In this document: piece by piece, positions 7,021 to 10,640 of the stretch
Position numbering within the stretch: position 1 is the first letter of the stretch
Layout: each line of letters opens with the position of its first letter
Origin: Propylenella binzhouense
GTDB lineage: Bacteria; Pseudomonadota; Alphaproteobacteria; Rhizobiales; Afifellaceae
Direction: 5' to 3'
Length of the DNA stretch: 58,653 nt
NCBI RefSeq assembly: GCF_009866965.1
Contig: NZ_SPKJ01000015.1
Location: forward strand, 1 to 58,653
The notes under the pieces: model-generated
What the model was told of the DNA's origin: nothing
Databases searched by the model: none
The model's input: only the letters and a program-made list of their open reading frames with translations
Translations under genes and position numbers: made by a program

Positions 7021-7809
7021 CTAGGCGGGTTGGGCCACCTCCACTGATCCTCGGATGATATTAATAACCTCGTCCGGCCGCTCGGGCGGTACCATCTCGC
7101 CAAACTCACGCATTTCGCTCAACTCGGTCGAATAGCCAAACAGTCGAAAATCTTCCGCATATATCGTTCTGACGAGATGAATTGCCTCGTCATTATAATA
7201 TTGGACAGTGGGAGTTTTGATGCGACTCGCGCCAAGCACTCGGTTCTCAATGGGAACGCCGGCTGAGGTCATATAGGCAAAAGTATCCTGCGCCGATTCA
7301 AGTCTCCCAATAAATGCAAATTCCGTAGAATGGTATAAAATATCAAGATATTGCGGCCGAAAGTGCTGATCCCATGTGGTCGTATCTGGGCTAGACGCCA
7401 AGGTGCGTAGAAAGTCTAGAAAGGAATAGTCGCGCTTTGTTAGAGTTGGATCGATGTCATGGATGCGACAAAAGTTTTCCCATGCATGATTGCTGCGGAC
7501 GTTACCAATCTTATCGCTATATGCCGAAACAGCTCGGGAAAACGGGTTGCGTACCATTGTCACAAACGGCTTTCCTGAGAACGACGAAAAATCATAATTG
7601 CCGTTGAACACATTAACAAAGGGGCTCGCCCTGCGATCATGTGCATTTCCAACGAACGTCACCTTTCCACGCATTGTATCTATGTATTCCCAGAGAGAAG
7701 CCTTGATAGTTGTGCAGGCAACCTTGGGGTTCTGTATGTACACAAAAGGCAGTTCGTCGGCATAAATGATGGCCTGTACAATGCGTTGGCGAAGAGCGTG
7801 GTCCGTCAT
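7021..7809 (-). CDS. Sulfotransferase family 2 protein (first copy)
   Basis: A 262-residue protein of the carbohydrate sulfotransferase type (Sulfotransfer_2), expected to move sulfate from PAPS to a hydroxyl group of a glycan or lipid. The PAPS 5'-phosphosulfate loop is seen as QNPKVACTTIKASLWEY, and the 3'-phosphate loop as VRNPFSRAVSAYSDK. The ATG at 7809 places the first loop about 25 residues in, as usual; AGGAA lies just upstream. Base composition is clearly AT-richer than the flanking genes and codon use is different, a sign of transfer. No glycosyltransferase or sulfate-activation gene lies nearby, so the acceptor is unknown. Confidence 0.87.
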   Translation of the reverse strand: MTDHALRQRIVQAIIYADELPFVYIQNPKVACTTIKASLWEYIDTMRGKVTFVGNAHDRRASPFVNVFNGNYDFSSFSGKPFVTMVRNPFSRAVSAYSDKIGNVRSNHAWENFCRIHDIDPTLTKRDYSFLDFLRTLASSPDTTTWDQHFRPQYLDILYHSTEFAFIGRLESAQDTFAYMTSAGVPIENRVLGASRIKTPTVQYYNDEAIHLVRTIYAEDFRLFGYSTELSEMREFGEMVPPERPDEVINIIRGSVEVAQPA

Positions 7810-7902
7810 GTTTCCTAATGCTCCGAAAAAATATGAACAAAGGCCATATGCCGCGCGCGACCGACGAGGTGGTGACCGGCCGCAGTCGGCCACCAACAAG
7901 CC

Positions 7903-8079
7903 TCACTCCGTCGGGAGCGCAGCAACCTGCTCCTTCAGCGATTGCTGCTCGGCCCTGAGTTCGTCGAGGCGGAACTTCGCGGCCTTAGCTTCTTCGCGGG
8001 CTCTGGCGGCTGTCTCCCGAATGGAGGCGATTTCTTCGTTGACCTCACGCAAGCGCTTACGAATCGGATTCGGTGCCAT
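7903..8079 (-). CDS. Small coiled-coil protein, copy A
   Basis: A 58-residue, highly charged helical protein beginning MAPNPIRKRLREVNEEI and rich in Arg/Glu/Ala heptads, so very likely a coiled coil. It has a clear AAAGGAG ribosome site ahead of the ATG. Copy B at 9732-9911 has the same layout, with RKRLREVNEE, RETA-RAR-EAK and ELxAE shared, and the two genes also share their 20-nt leader. I do not recognise a named family. It lies upstream of the first sulfotransferase on the same strand, 93 bp from that gene's start, so the two could be cotranscribed. Confidence 0.7.
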   Translation of the reverse strand: MAPNPIRKRLREVNEEIASIRETAARAREEAKAAKFRLDELRAEQQSLKEQVAALPTE

Positions 8080-8109
8080 GTCTCGGCTCCTTTGTTGGTT
8101 TGATCGCGG

Positions 8110-8322
8110 TCAATCCAGCCCCGTCATTGTGATCGTTTCCAAGCGAGAGTCCACCCCGCACGCATACCCCGTCTGGGTCGTATCCAATTGGGCGCGCTGG
8201 CTCCTTTCAAGCGTTGCAATCTGGCCACTCAGCGCGAGATCAAGGTGAGAGCGGACGGCCCAGGACCATGGATGATCAGGAAGCTTCTCTGTTCTACAAG
8301 AGCATCGGTGACTAGGAAATAG
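8110..8322 (-). pseudogene. Open frame without start codon, possible gene remnant
   Basis: A 70-codon open frame ending 30 nt upstream of coiled-coil copy A on the same strand. The peptide looks protein-like (for example QIATLERSQRAQLDTTQT, with heptad-like spacing) but has no ATG, GTG or TTG near its N-terminal end; the only Met is near the C-terminus. It may be the tail of a gene whose front was lost when the island was rearranged, or chance. No family is recognised. Confidence 0.25.
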
Positions 8323-8609
8323 TCAACTAACTAAACCAGCCACGAGAAGTCGTCAATCAGTACTTTCTAAAGCGTGTCGATTCGGCGGCTAGTCCCTCAT
8401 CTGCTCTGTTTTCTTTTCTTTGATGGCGCGTTTTTCTTGTGTGTCGTTGCCTCCAAGTTGCGTCAATGGTCCACGGGTTGCGCCTAACGTCGCTGTGATG
8501 CCGTCGTCTCCGATGGCCATCTTGTCGCGTGTCTCAGCAGTGGGATCGATCTGGTATAGACTGGCCGAGCAGCCGCCGTTATCGTGCGGTCGAACTCAGG
8601 AGGGCAGTT
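8323..8609. other. Intergenic stretch of the accessory block
   Basis: This AT-richer interval upstream of the second sulfotransferase holds no convincing gene. The short plus-strand frame from 8420 lacks a ribosome site and a recognisable product. A candidate -10 (TATAGA, about 8557-8562) may serve the sulfotransferase gene that starts at 8610, but no good -35 was seen. Confidence 0.4.
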
Positions 8610-9425
8610 GTGACTGGGAATCTTGATAGTAACGATATGATCCAGTTCGTGCTGGAAAACATGGGAACGAAGGACACGCTATGGTTATTCCATCACATCC
8701 CGAAAACGGCTGGAAGCTCTCTCCGTGCAGAGCTGGTTAACGCCACGAGGTCACAATATAACATTTATGAAGGCGCTGTAATTCCGGATGATCCGGCGCT
8801 TCGTACGCCGATAATATTGCTAAATCTTGCATGTGATGACTTCTTTATTAAGCACGCCGAGCGTCCGCGCCGGTTTGTATCCGGACATCTACTTCGTACT
8901 CACGTTGAGAGAATACTTTCTCTTGGAAATGTGAAAATGTTCACGTTATTGCGTGAGCCATTCGACCGTTTGGTATCATCATATCGCTATCAACAGACTC
9001 CAACGCATCCACAGCATAACGAATTTATCGCTCGGTTCCCGGATTTTTCTAATTTTATTGAATTCGAGCACTCCGCAAATGCCATGGCCAAATACATAAC
9101 CGGAGATGAAGAACCAAGTGCTGAGAAGTGCATTGAAATTCTGCGGCGAGATTATGTATTTGTCGGGACAATTGAGCGATACTCAATTTGTCGGCTCATG
9201 CTCTTCGAGCTGATAAACGCTGAAGCGCCGGAAGAGGAAACTCGCGAACGTGAGTCCGCGCCAACAGTCCCTAATGAGATAGACGACAAGGAACGATATC
9301 GTGAGCTATTCCGAGAACGGAACCGGGTCGACTACGAAGTGTATGACTTCGTCAGAAACCGAATTGAAAGTCAAGTTGAGTCAATGAAGTGTGCAATCCA
9401 CACATTAGGGATGGCAAGCGTCTGA
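8610..9425 (+). CDS. Sulfotransferase family 2 protein (second copy)
   Basis: A 271-residue carbohydrate sulfotransferase-like protein. The N-terminal HHIPKTAGSSLRAEL is the 5'-phosphosulfate-binding loop of heparan sulfate/uronyl 2-O-sulfotransferase-type enzymes, and LLREPFDRLVSSYRY is the 3'-phosphate loop. I chose a GTG start at 8610 because AGGAGGG at 8598-8604 sits at ideal distance; an upstream ATG at 8529 would add residues with no such site. It is AT-rich like the first sulfotransferase, lies on the opposite strand and is only distantly similar to it, so the pair is not a recent duplication. The acceptor is unknown; a surface polysaccharide is a reasonable guess. Confidence 0.87.
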   Translation: MTGNLDSNDMIQFVLENMGTKDTLWLFHHIPKTAGSSLRAELVNATRSQYNIYEGAVIPDDPALRTPIILLNLACDDFFIKHAERPRRFVSGHLLRTHVERILSLGNVKMFTLLREPFDRLVSSYRYQQTPTHPQHNEFIARFPDFSNFIEFEHSANAMAKYITGDEEPSAEKCIEILRRDYVFVGTIERYSICRLMLFELINAEAPEEETRERESAPTVPNEIDDKERYRELFRERNRVDYEVYDFVRNRIESQVESMKCAIHTLGMASV

Positions 9426-9449
9426 GTTCTAGAGGCCGCTCCATGTTTT

Positions 9450-9578
9450 AGATCACGGCCATCTCGGCGACGGCGTTCGCTTCGGCGCGGAGTCCGTAAG
9501 CAGTTGATCTTTTCGCAAAGTTCCTGCAAACGCTTTTGTTCAAGGCTCGCTGCTATTCGTCTCGATTCTTTGTTGGTT
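9450..9578 (-). pseudogene. Decayed third copy (C) of the small coiled-coil gene
   Basis: On the minus strand the leader of copy A (AACCAACAAAGGAGCCGAGAC at 8080-8100) recurs at 9559-9578 with its ribosome site changed to AAAGAATC. It is followed by a frame reading KRLQELCEKI, parallel to KRLREVNEEI of copy A. The ATG is gone and the rest fits better in another frame (GLRAEANAVAEMA then stop), suggesting a frameshift. The remaining parts of 9426-9731 show no other gene. Confidence 0.45.
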
Positions 9579-9731
9579 GGCCGCGCAGTCCCAACGACCG
9601 CCTCTTTAGGTCTGTAGCGACAGTCCGCCGCCGATAGATGAAGTCCGCAAGCAACCCTCCAGTTCAAGAACGGCATTGCCGTGAACCCGATAAGGCGGCC
9701 GGGGAGAGCCCCGACCGCCAATCTGAGGAAA

Positions 9732-9911
9732 TCAGGCGCTCGCCGGTTCGGCGTCGACCTTCGCCTTCAGCTCGATTCGCTCGGCCTGCAGTTCCTTCAC
9801 CCGGGCGGCGGCGGTTTTGGCCTCGTCTCGTGCCCTGGTTGCGGTCTCGCGCGTCCGCTTCAGTTCCTCGTTCACCTCGCGGAGGCGCTTGCGATCAGGA
9901 TTGGCAGCCAT
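9732..9911 (-). CDS. Small coiled-coil protein, copy B
   Basis: A 59-residue Arg/Glu/Ala-rich helical protein starting MAANPDRKRLREVNEEL, paralogous to copy A across its whole length. A ribosome site AAAGGAGC precedes the ATG, and the leader is shared with copy A. Its base composition is nearer to the genome average than that of copy A. It is the third gene of the block on the minus strand, 184 bp downstream of the 92-residue protein gene. Function unknown; the heptad-rich sequence suggests oligomer formation or binding to a partner coiled coil. Confidence 0.72.
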   Translation of the reverse strand: MAANPDRKRLREVNEELKRTRETATRARDEAKTAAARVKELQAERIELKAKVDAEPASA

Positions 9912-10095
9912 GTCTTGCTCCTTTGTATTTTGCACCGGAGGTTCCGGCGCGCGCAGTCTTCCCCCTCCGACTCCCGTTGTCCAGCGCGCCGGGAGGGGAA
10001 CGCGGCTGCGAAACGGGGTTCTCGCACCTGCAACATCCTTGCCTGGAACGCATTCTCGCAGGTGCCTGCGGCCTATTACCGCCCCGTCCTTTCGT

Positions 10096-10374
10096 TCACG
10101 CCTCCACCACCCGCCAGCCGTCTCCGCCGAGATATCGTCTATCGGTGCCGTAGGACCCGTCCTTCCTCTGCGGGTTCCCGTAGACGGTCGGGCCGGAACG
10201 GCCATGCGTCTTCAGCATCGCGACCCGGTAGCGCCTGCCGTCCTTCTCGATAATCGAGCCTTCCTTCACGCCCGCCGCTTCGCAGACGATCCGGTGGCGC
10301 TCCTCCCTGAGGCTCGCGAGCTGCGCCTCGAGCTCCTTCTCGCGGCGATCGAGTTCGTCCAGAGGGTCATTCAT
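10096..10374 (-). CDS. 92-residue protein with N-terminal coiled coil
   Basis: The first 35 residues (LDELDRREKELEAQLASLREE) form a predicted coiled coil. The remainder looks like a small beta-rich domain with VKEGSIIEKDGRRYRV and TVYGNPQRKDGSYGT. I do not recognise a family. The heptad-rich start recalls copies A and B, but no direct homology is visible. It lies between copy B and the tRNA-Val gene and probably belongs to the same accessory block. Codon use is close to the genome average, and the reading frame is free of stops with an ordinary ATG. Confidence 0.65.
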   Translation of the reverse strand: MNDPLDELDRREKELEAQLASLREERHRIVCEAAGVKEGSIIEKDGRRYRVAMLKTHGRSGPTVYGNPQRKDGSYGTDRRYLGGDGWRVVEA

Positions 10375-10565: not shown

Positions 10566-10640
10566 TGGTGGGCGCGACAGGGATTGAACCTGTGACCCCT
10601 CCCGTGTGAAGGGAGTGCTCTCCCGCTGAGCTACGCGCCC
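10566..10640 (-). tRNA. tRNA-Val (anticodon CAC)
   Basis: The minus strand folds as a standard cloverleaf: acceptor GGGCGCG/CGCGCCC, D arm GCTC-AGCGGGA-GAGC, anticodon arm CTCCC-TTCACAC-GGGAG with anticodon CAC, and T loop GGTTCAATCCC. The discriminator A and the 3' CCA are encoded (10566-10569). The gene's 3' end faces the accessory block to its left, the usual side for elements that integrate at a tRNA. Confidence 0.95.

Follow-up and report, generated by a model that had tools for sequence, protein, structure and literature searches.

A tiny coiled-coil gene that appears to travel with surface-sugar genes in alphaproteobacteria

Hha and truncated forms of H-NS are partial nucleoid or silencing proteins, which are small, confined to an oligomerization function, and carried on islands. 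DUF1127 genes, as described in PMC12218461, are small, often monocistronic and present in several copies per genome in alphaproteobacteria, some of them being tied to sugar use or biofilm, and the proteins they encode are arginine-rich. Here we describe a family of small genes with a different protein design. A 58,653-nt stretch of DNA from Propylenella binzhouense (contig NZ_SPKJ01000015.1), referred to below as the window, carries three copies, two of them intact and one decayed, in or next to a foreign-looking patch that also encodes sulfation enzymes.

The intact copies, A (7903..8079, minus strand) and B (9732..9911, minus strand), are open frames of 58 and 59 codons that encode coiled-coil proteins of 58 and 59 amino acids, and A is also recovered by a profile match. 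The two proteins are 60% identical, and in a pairwise alignment of the genes 106/174 nt are the same. Their protein alignment scores 157, and none of 1000 shuffles in which every residue stays in its heptad phase goes above 83; the match is therefore more than coiled-coil composition. Their leaders, AACCAACAAAGGAGCCGAGAC in the case of A (8080..8100, minus strand) and AAAATACAAAGGAGCAAGAC in the case of B (9912..9931, minus strand), are alike and include the same ribosome site, CAAAGGA. In all these respects the original prediction of two small heptad-rich genes of common layout with matching leaders, whose similarity should go beyond compositional bias, was borne out. It is true that charged low-complexity sequences yield many weak library matches, which might suggest that A and B are unrelated coiled-coil frames that look alike by chance; in view of the heptad-preserving shuffles, the common leader and the existence of homologs with the same expression unit, we regard this explanation as refuted and its remaining probability as negligible.

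Differences between A and B are distributed over the first, second and third codon positions as 19/14/35, and the estimated dN and dS are 0.37 and 1.88 by the NG86 method and 0.45 and 0.89 by YN00. Synonymous sites, which had been named beforehand as a decisive place to look, thus reveal that both frames are under constraint, by YN00 more weakly than by NG86. The split between A (G+C content 0.61) and B (0.67) is not recent, and they are not recent local duplicates.

The surroundings of the two copies differ in composition. A, the decayed copy and two sulfotransferase genes sit in DNA of 45-59% G+C (about 7.0-9.7 kb), flanked by a DoxX gene and a tRNA-Val gene, while B lies just outside this AT-rich patch, in DNA of 62-66% G+C; the G+C content of the genome, averaged over sampled stretches, is near 70%. 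Sulfotransferase 1 (PF03567; 7021..7809, minus strand; E 2e-20, 74.5 bits with the cut-off at 22, scanned from the longer frame 7024-7899) has a G+C content of 0.48 and follows A in the same orientation after a gap of 93 nt. Sulfotransferase 2 (PF03567; 8637..9425, plus strand; E 7e-7, 30.1 bits with the same cut-off of 22, scanned from the frame start at 8529) has a G+C content of about 0.47 and is located between the decayed copy and A. Read along the minus strand, the order is B, the decayed copy, sulfotransferase 2 (itself on the plus strand), A and sulfotransferase 1. Among plasmid records, the window's glutathione reductase and DAHP synthase come closest to Sinorhizobium (64% and 76%), which agrees with an alphaproteobacterial origin. 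The tRNA-Val gene (CAC; 10566-10640, minus strand) near the edge of the AT-rich stretch is a possible integration site. Between it and B, 184 nt upstream of B and on the same strand, there is a 92-aa frame (10096-10374, minus strand), whose N-terminal half looks helical and for which Pfam offers only DUF7526 at E 0.14 and PADLOC no match.

The third copy (9476..9617, minus strand) is closest to A and has lost its start codon and reading frame, with a recognizable leader at 9559-9578. Its alignment with the A unit starts before the leader, continues into the frame and scores 90, the maximum in 500 doublet-keeping shuffles being 78, and the decayed copy is the best match outside the training copies in 788 kb (E 0.032) of a DNA profile built from the nine intact units introduced below. 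Two protein pieces of this copy, taken alone, match A weakly (17 and 71 of 1000 shuffles were as good). The leader followed by frame-broken family sequence is therefore confirmed, and the DNA-level kinship among the three loci held for A with B and for the decayed copy with A; it did not hold for the decayed copy with B, where 40/500 shuffles were equally good. Sulfotransferase 2 is thus bracketed by two direct repeats, the decayed copy and A. We considered the unit as a repeated anchor for the swapping of cargo and rejected the idea, which rests on this one locus, as the DNA profile found no second unit in other islands.

Further searches brought the number of intact copies to nine, in six genomes and one plasmid, at eight loci. 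Scanning 84,980 species genomes with patterns from the alignment of A and B, which are short exact peptides and hence insensitive, gave one confirmed locus, L014, in Poseidonocella sp. HB161398, whose 52-residue protein begins MAANPDRKKMREV. The same genome (G443) contains a second copy, L018, and tblastn revealed another, L017, on a plasmid of Paracoccus saliphilus, where it is annotated as a hypothetical protein with a start that by our reading is 75 nt too far upstream. In the family of Poseidonocella 10/394 genomes gave matches, of which those in G443, G669 (locus L029), G727 (L030) and G786 (L031) were retained and those in G602 (L032), G572, G603, G740, G796 and G836 were dropped; within the genus, copies are present in 3/4 genomes, adding G1089 (L041). 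Members beyond HB161398 thus come from two more genomes of its genus and two others of its family. The order to which G443 belongs gave matches in 3/390 genomes (G443 and G727 kept, G997 dropped). In the window's own order 8/397 genomes gave matches, with credible copies only in the window's own genome and seven genomes dropped, and in the class 8/385, where the seven besides the own genome and one extra match in the own genome were dropped. With B alone as the query, a match was obtained in 1/61 genomes (60 relatives and the own genome), namely the own one. Viral contigs searched with A1, A2 and the leader pattern, and phages and plasmids searched with B, gave no match.

The 24 dropped loci, including one further match in the own genome, were inspected: none has the leader pattern and all except G602 are partial matches inside other frames. 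For example, G008 and G004, from the window's own family, read ADPDRKRLR..., but antisense to a 607-residue frame. In the case of G602 (L032, 3077-3262) the frame has 61 residues, is of the coiled-coil type and begins in much the same way, with MAKTPKKRLREI, but lacks the leader; it is possibly a distant member.

Among the retained copies, not only A and B but also 9/10 other tested pairs score above all 1000 heptad-keeping shuffles, the exception being B with the G786 copy (64, with a shuffle maximum of 72), and the third codon position differs most in 7/7 pairs counted. The search for relatives and their neighbors, which the original prediction had suggested, brought up homologs in other genera and a sulfotransferase-bearing context that recurs around them. 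As credible copies among the 397 genomes sampled from the window's own order are confined to its own genome, the copies in the window look imported or relict. The proposal of repeated gain and loss within 2 kb accordingly stands in one part and falls in the other: one local decay is seen, but the divergence of A and B, their differing G+C content and the homologs in other genera indicate that the gene was not born in the window. Import, an old or imported duplication, and a single local decay fit better than birth on the spot.

The proteins share a MAxNPxRKxLRE-like N-terminal start, from which L017 deviates most, followed by an uninterrupted heptad helix. The heptad periodicity that had been predicted for A and B is real, being matched by 0/2000 shuffles, and a heptad core is found in 9/9 proteins at p 0.03 or lower. 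AlphaFold2, run on three sequences, yielded for B one helix spanning residues 5-54 with a mean pLDDT of 92. In the family alignment A and B are longer than the others by seven residues, i.e. by one heptad, and alanines occupy the middle of the core; net charge differs among the nine proteins, between -1.5 and +4.5. The product would be a soluble rod made of one uninterrupted coiled-coil helix, as predicted by the model, and would be expected to assemble into cytoplasmic dimers or trimers. A type I toxin was considered and rejected, as no hydrophobic segment is seen in the nine sequences.

Conservation seems to involve an entire expression unit, about 250 nt long, which the original prediction had missed and which extends beyond the protein and its ribosome site to an upstream box, a hairpin, the leader and a second hairpin behind the stop codon. 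T(T/G)GAC occurs at -72 to -79 from the ATG (typically near -76) in 8/9 copies, with TTCACT at -80 in L017. The -35-like box of A, TGGACT (8148..8153, minus strand), has p 0.13 taken alone and shares its position with other copies, while that of B, TGGACA (9978..9983, minus strand), reaches p 0.02 together with its -10 partner; as most -35/-10 matches are not significant singly, it is the common position that carries the argument. Hairpins upstream of the ribosome site have a combined z of -5.1 over the nine copies and p < 0.05 individually in 6/9, with shuffles that keep base composition only. In the case of B the hairpin, GCGCCGGA/TCCGGTGC (9932..9950, minus strand), has -14.3 kcal/mol and p 0.04 for a wider stretch, while that of A (8096..8117, minus strand) is weak (-4.8 kcal/mol in the -40..-1 fold) and, like those of L014 and L018, no better than shuffles. 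Another hairpin starts at most 26 nt from the stop in 8/9 copies, few of which have a T run, as judged from folds without a shuffle control; on the same footing, A has a terminator-like hairpin with no clear T run (7851..7889, minus strand) and B a strong one with no T run (9689..9723, minus strand; -24.9 kcal/mol).

Across 8 records, which add up to about 38.7 Mb in rounded sizes, the leader pattern CAAAGGANC(3-5)ACATGGC occurs seven times, always in front of a family member, and its backwards version has 0 sites in the same records; as the pattern was drawn from family copies, its absence elsewhere is the actual test. It is exact in A, B and 5/7 other intact copies, with L017 and L018 deviating. 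A family member would thus be a self-contained unit with a promoter-like box, a strong conserved ribosome site and a frame of 47-59 codons, usually with one hairpin close to where the transcript is expected to start and a terminator-like one just behind the stop. From this arrangement of putative promoter, transcript start and terminator we infer strong independent expression.

The upstream hairpin, the short length and the hairpin behind the stop also resemble a small RNA gene, in which case the structured transcript would act as a regulatory RNA and the frame would be secondary or one of two functions. We find this very unlikely: the preponderance of third-position differences in every pair counted indicates that the frame is what is kept, the upstream hairpin sequences differ from copy to copy, and Rfam gave no match at seven loci.

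The original prediction had linked the small genes to the sulfotransferase region of the window, and this link recurs in other genomes: glycan-type genes lie within about 5 kb at 7/8 loci and sulfotransferase-like genes at 5/8, counts that include weak assignments, as the sulfotransferases outside the window are identified by Pfam scores below the curated cut-offs or by mutual similarity. L014 is accompanied by a family-2 glycosyltransferase and two sulfotransferase-like genes, and the G1089 copy by glycosyltransferases of two kinds and two sulfotransferase-like genes. Beside the G669 copy there are a sulfotransferase-like gene and an AlgX-like SGNH gene, both below the cut-offs, and beside L018 a GDSL/SGNH-like gene, also below the cut-off. 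The G786 copy neighbors a GSCFA gene (127.5 bits) and a sulfotransferase-like gene recognized by similarity to the others only, and L017 neighbors rfbABCD. In G727 no glycan gene was seen, and the neighbor is an AT-rich gene of unknown kind (L030 6802-7524; 43% G+C) without a Pfam or PADLOC match, directly preceded by what we take to be lepA. What we read as insertion-sequence-like frames near the Poseidonocella small gene (L018 1-2000) resemble frames of the Paracoccus plasmid (L017 6200-6900), with up to 67% protein identity.

Most copies also have AT-rich DNA nearby. Within 2 kb of 8/9 copies there is a 500-nt stretch with less than 48% G+C, the G786 copy having 56% (0.562), and the DNA around the plasmid copy is just slightly poorer in G+C than its wider surroundings. 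In sampled stretches of five genomes about 5/1759 control points have a stretch below 50%, all 5 in the window's genome (n=589, the 5 being back-calculated from a printed fraction of 0.008), and in the rest of the window 0/184 do so; in this comparison the limit was 0.48 for members and 0.50 for controls, neighboring points overlap and are not independent, own-genome stretches shorter than 4 kb (5/20) were left out, and the controls include none for G1089 or the plasmid.

That the strongest common factor is AT-rich DNA and not one particular enzyme is what would be expected of a regulator of foreign DNA, a coiled coil that acts as a partial nucleoid or silencing protein and tunes the island on which it resides, and the small size and oligomer-only design agree with such a role. 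The net charge, which spans the range given above, argues against it, as do the lack of any visible DNA-binding motif and the absence of the H-NS family from the profile-scan matches listed (two of the lists show at most 25 families), and we consider a role of this kind improbable.

Orientation of the small gene and its side relative to the glycan genes vary by locus, and there is no fixed operon. Most copies have their own hairpin behind the stop, and only A, ahead of sulfotransferase 1, and the G786 copy, ahead of the GSCFA gene, look able to read into a glycan gene. Among frames of at least 35 codons compared at E 1e-3, no gene other than the small one connects all eight loci. Its occurrence in both orientations and at both island edges, the cargo that differs by locus, the decayed copy, and the AT-rich DNA of G727 without a glycan gene would all agree with a passenger that hitchhikes in mobile AT-rich DNA, being small and cheap or selfish, and has no tie to glycan enzymes. 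On the other hand, the constraint on the frame between distant copies and the kept leader point to selection for expression, and the unit itself has neither a transposase nor an integrase. Passenger status is unlikely in our opinion, but together with a silencing-type role it is the main rival to a partnership with the enzymes.

Taken together, the data suggest that this tiny gene travels with surface-sugar genes. The best joint explanation, to which we assign a probability of roughly 0.45, is a mobile, self-contained accessory gene of surface-glycan islands that encodes a coiled-coil oligomer partnering the island's enzymes. The unit would be carried horizontally among alphaproteobacteria with AT-rich surface-glycan DNA comprising sulfotransferases, glycosyltransferases, SGNH or GSCFA proteins and rfb genes; transfer is deduced from patchiness and G+C content, while the association itself was encountered repeatedly. 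The product would most likely have an accessory role, binding or assembling the glycan enzymes of the island, some of which have helical-looking tails. This partnership, taken on its own, is the weakest step and a doubtful one, put forward because of the coiled-coil nature of the protein, its association with islands, and the charged, helical-looking tails that end three sulfotransferase-like proteins (L014 11163-12191, L029 1807-2814 and L041 3812-4852); in the two sulfotransferases of the window a coiled coil is not clearly visible at the C terminus (for sulfotransferase 2, one of the analyses read the tail out of frame). A bolder version, which we consider distinctly unlikely, is a dedicated, horizontally moving coiled-coil adaptor: foreign sulfation and glycosylation islands would bring their own scaffold gene, each time in the same expression unit, to plug their newly acquired enzymes into the surface assembly of the host or to tune them, and the gene would thereby mark and enable the exchange of coats among alphaproteobacteria, with phage receptors being exchanged as a consequence.

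Genes of fewer than 60 codons that look like generic coiled coils are easily missed or given a wrong start, as illustrated by L017, and the leader pattern provides a specific DNA probe for the family. If the companion role is true, the gene gives access to the question of how surface-coat enzymes of foreign origin are made to function in a new host, and it could serve to flag islands through which coats are exchanged. No paper on the family was found in the literature, as judged by titles and abstract openings, and the view that it belongs to no named family agrees with Pfam, NCBIfam, PHROGs, PADLOC, Rfam (seven loci) and PDB, none of which gave a fit beyond generic coiled-coil noise. In PHROGs, the best match was phrog_7208 (204 positions, unknown function), for the G727 copy only (E 9e-5, 39 residues), with none at 0.01 for B, L018, L029 and L031. 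In PADLOC, the matches of A were confined to stretches of DndD and LmuB (E 0.001-0.02), and B had none. A fold search with the helix gave no match, and the sequence matches in PDB are generic and designed coiled coils.

Compared to known systems, the family resembles ZapB (PF06005) and DivIC (PF04977) in its short heptad helices and in weak matches of single members, but the scores are far under the curated cut-offs (e.g. 15.8 vs 31.5 bits for ZapB). With Hha and truncated H-NS it has in common small, oligomerization-only proteins that arrive with AT-rich DNA; it differs in that the profile scans gave no match to them and that its charge is not conserved. DUF1127, which is absent from the profile-scan matches listed (two of the lists show at most 25 families), is similar in comprising small, often monocistronic genes, some of them tied to sugar use or biofilm, but its proteins are arginine-rich according to PMC12218461, whereas those of the new family consist of a heptad coiled coil throughout and are very rare. 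Finally, the loci resemble surface-polysaccharide islands in being AT-rich clusters of sulfotransferase-like, glycosyltransferase and SGNH/GSCFA genes, and differ from them in that the small gene is an unnamed companion and no pathway enzyme. On present evidence, we regard these genes as a small new family found in a specific context and not as a new kind of system.
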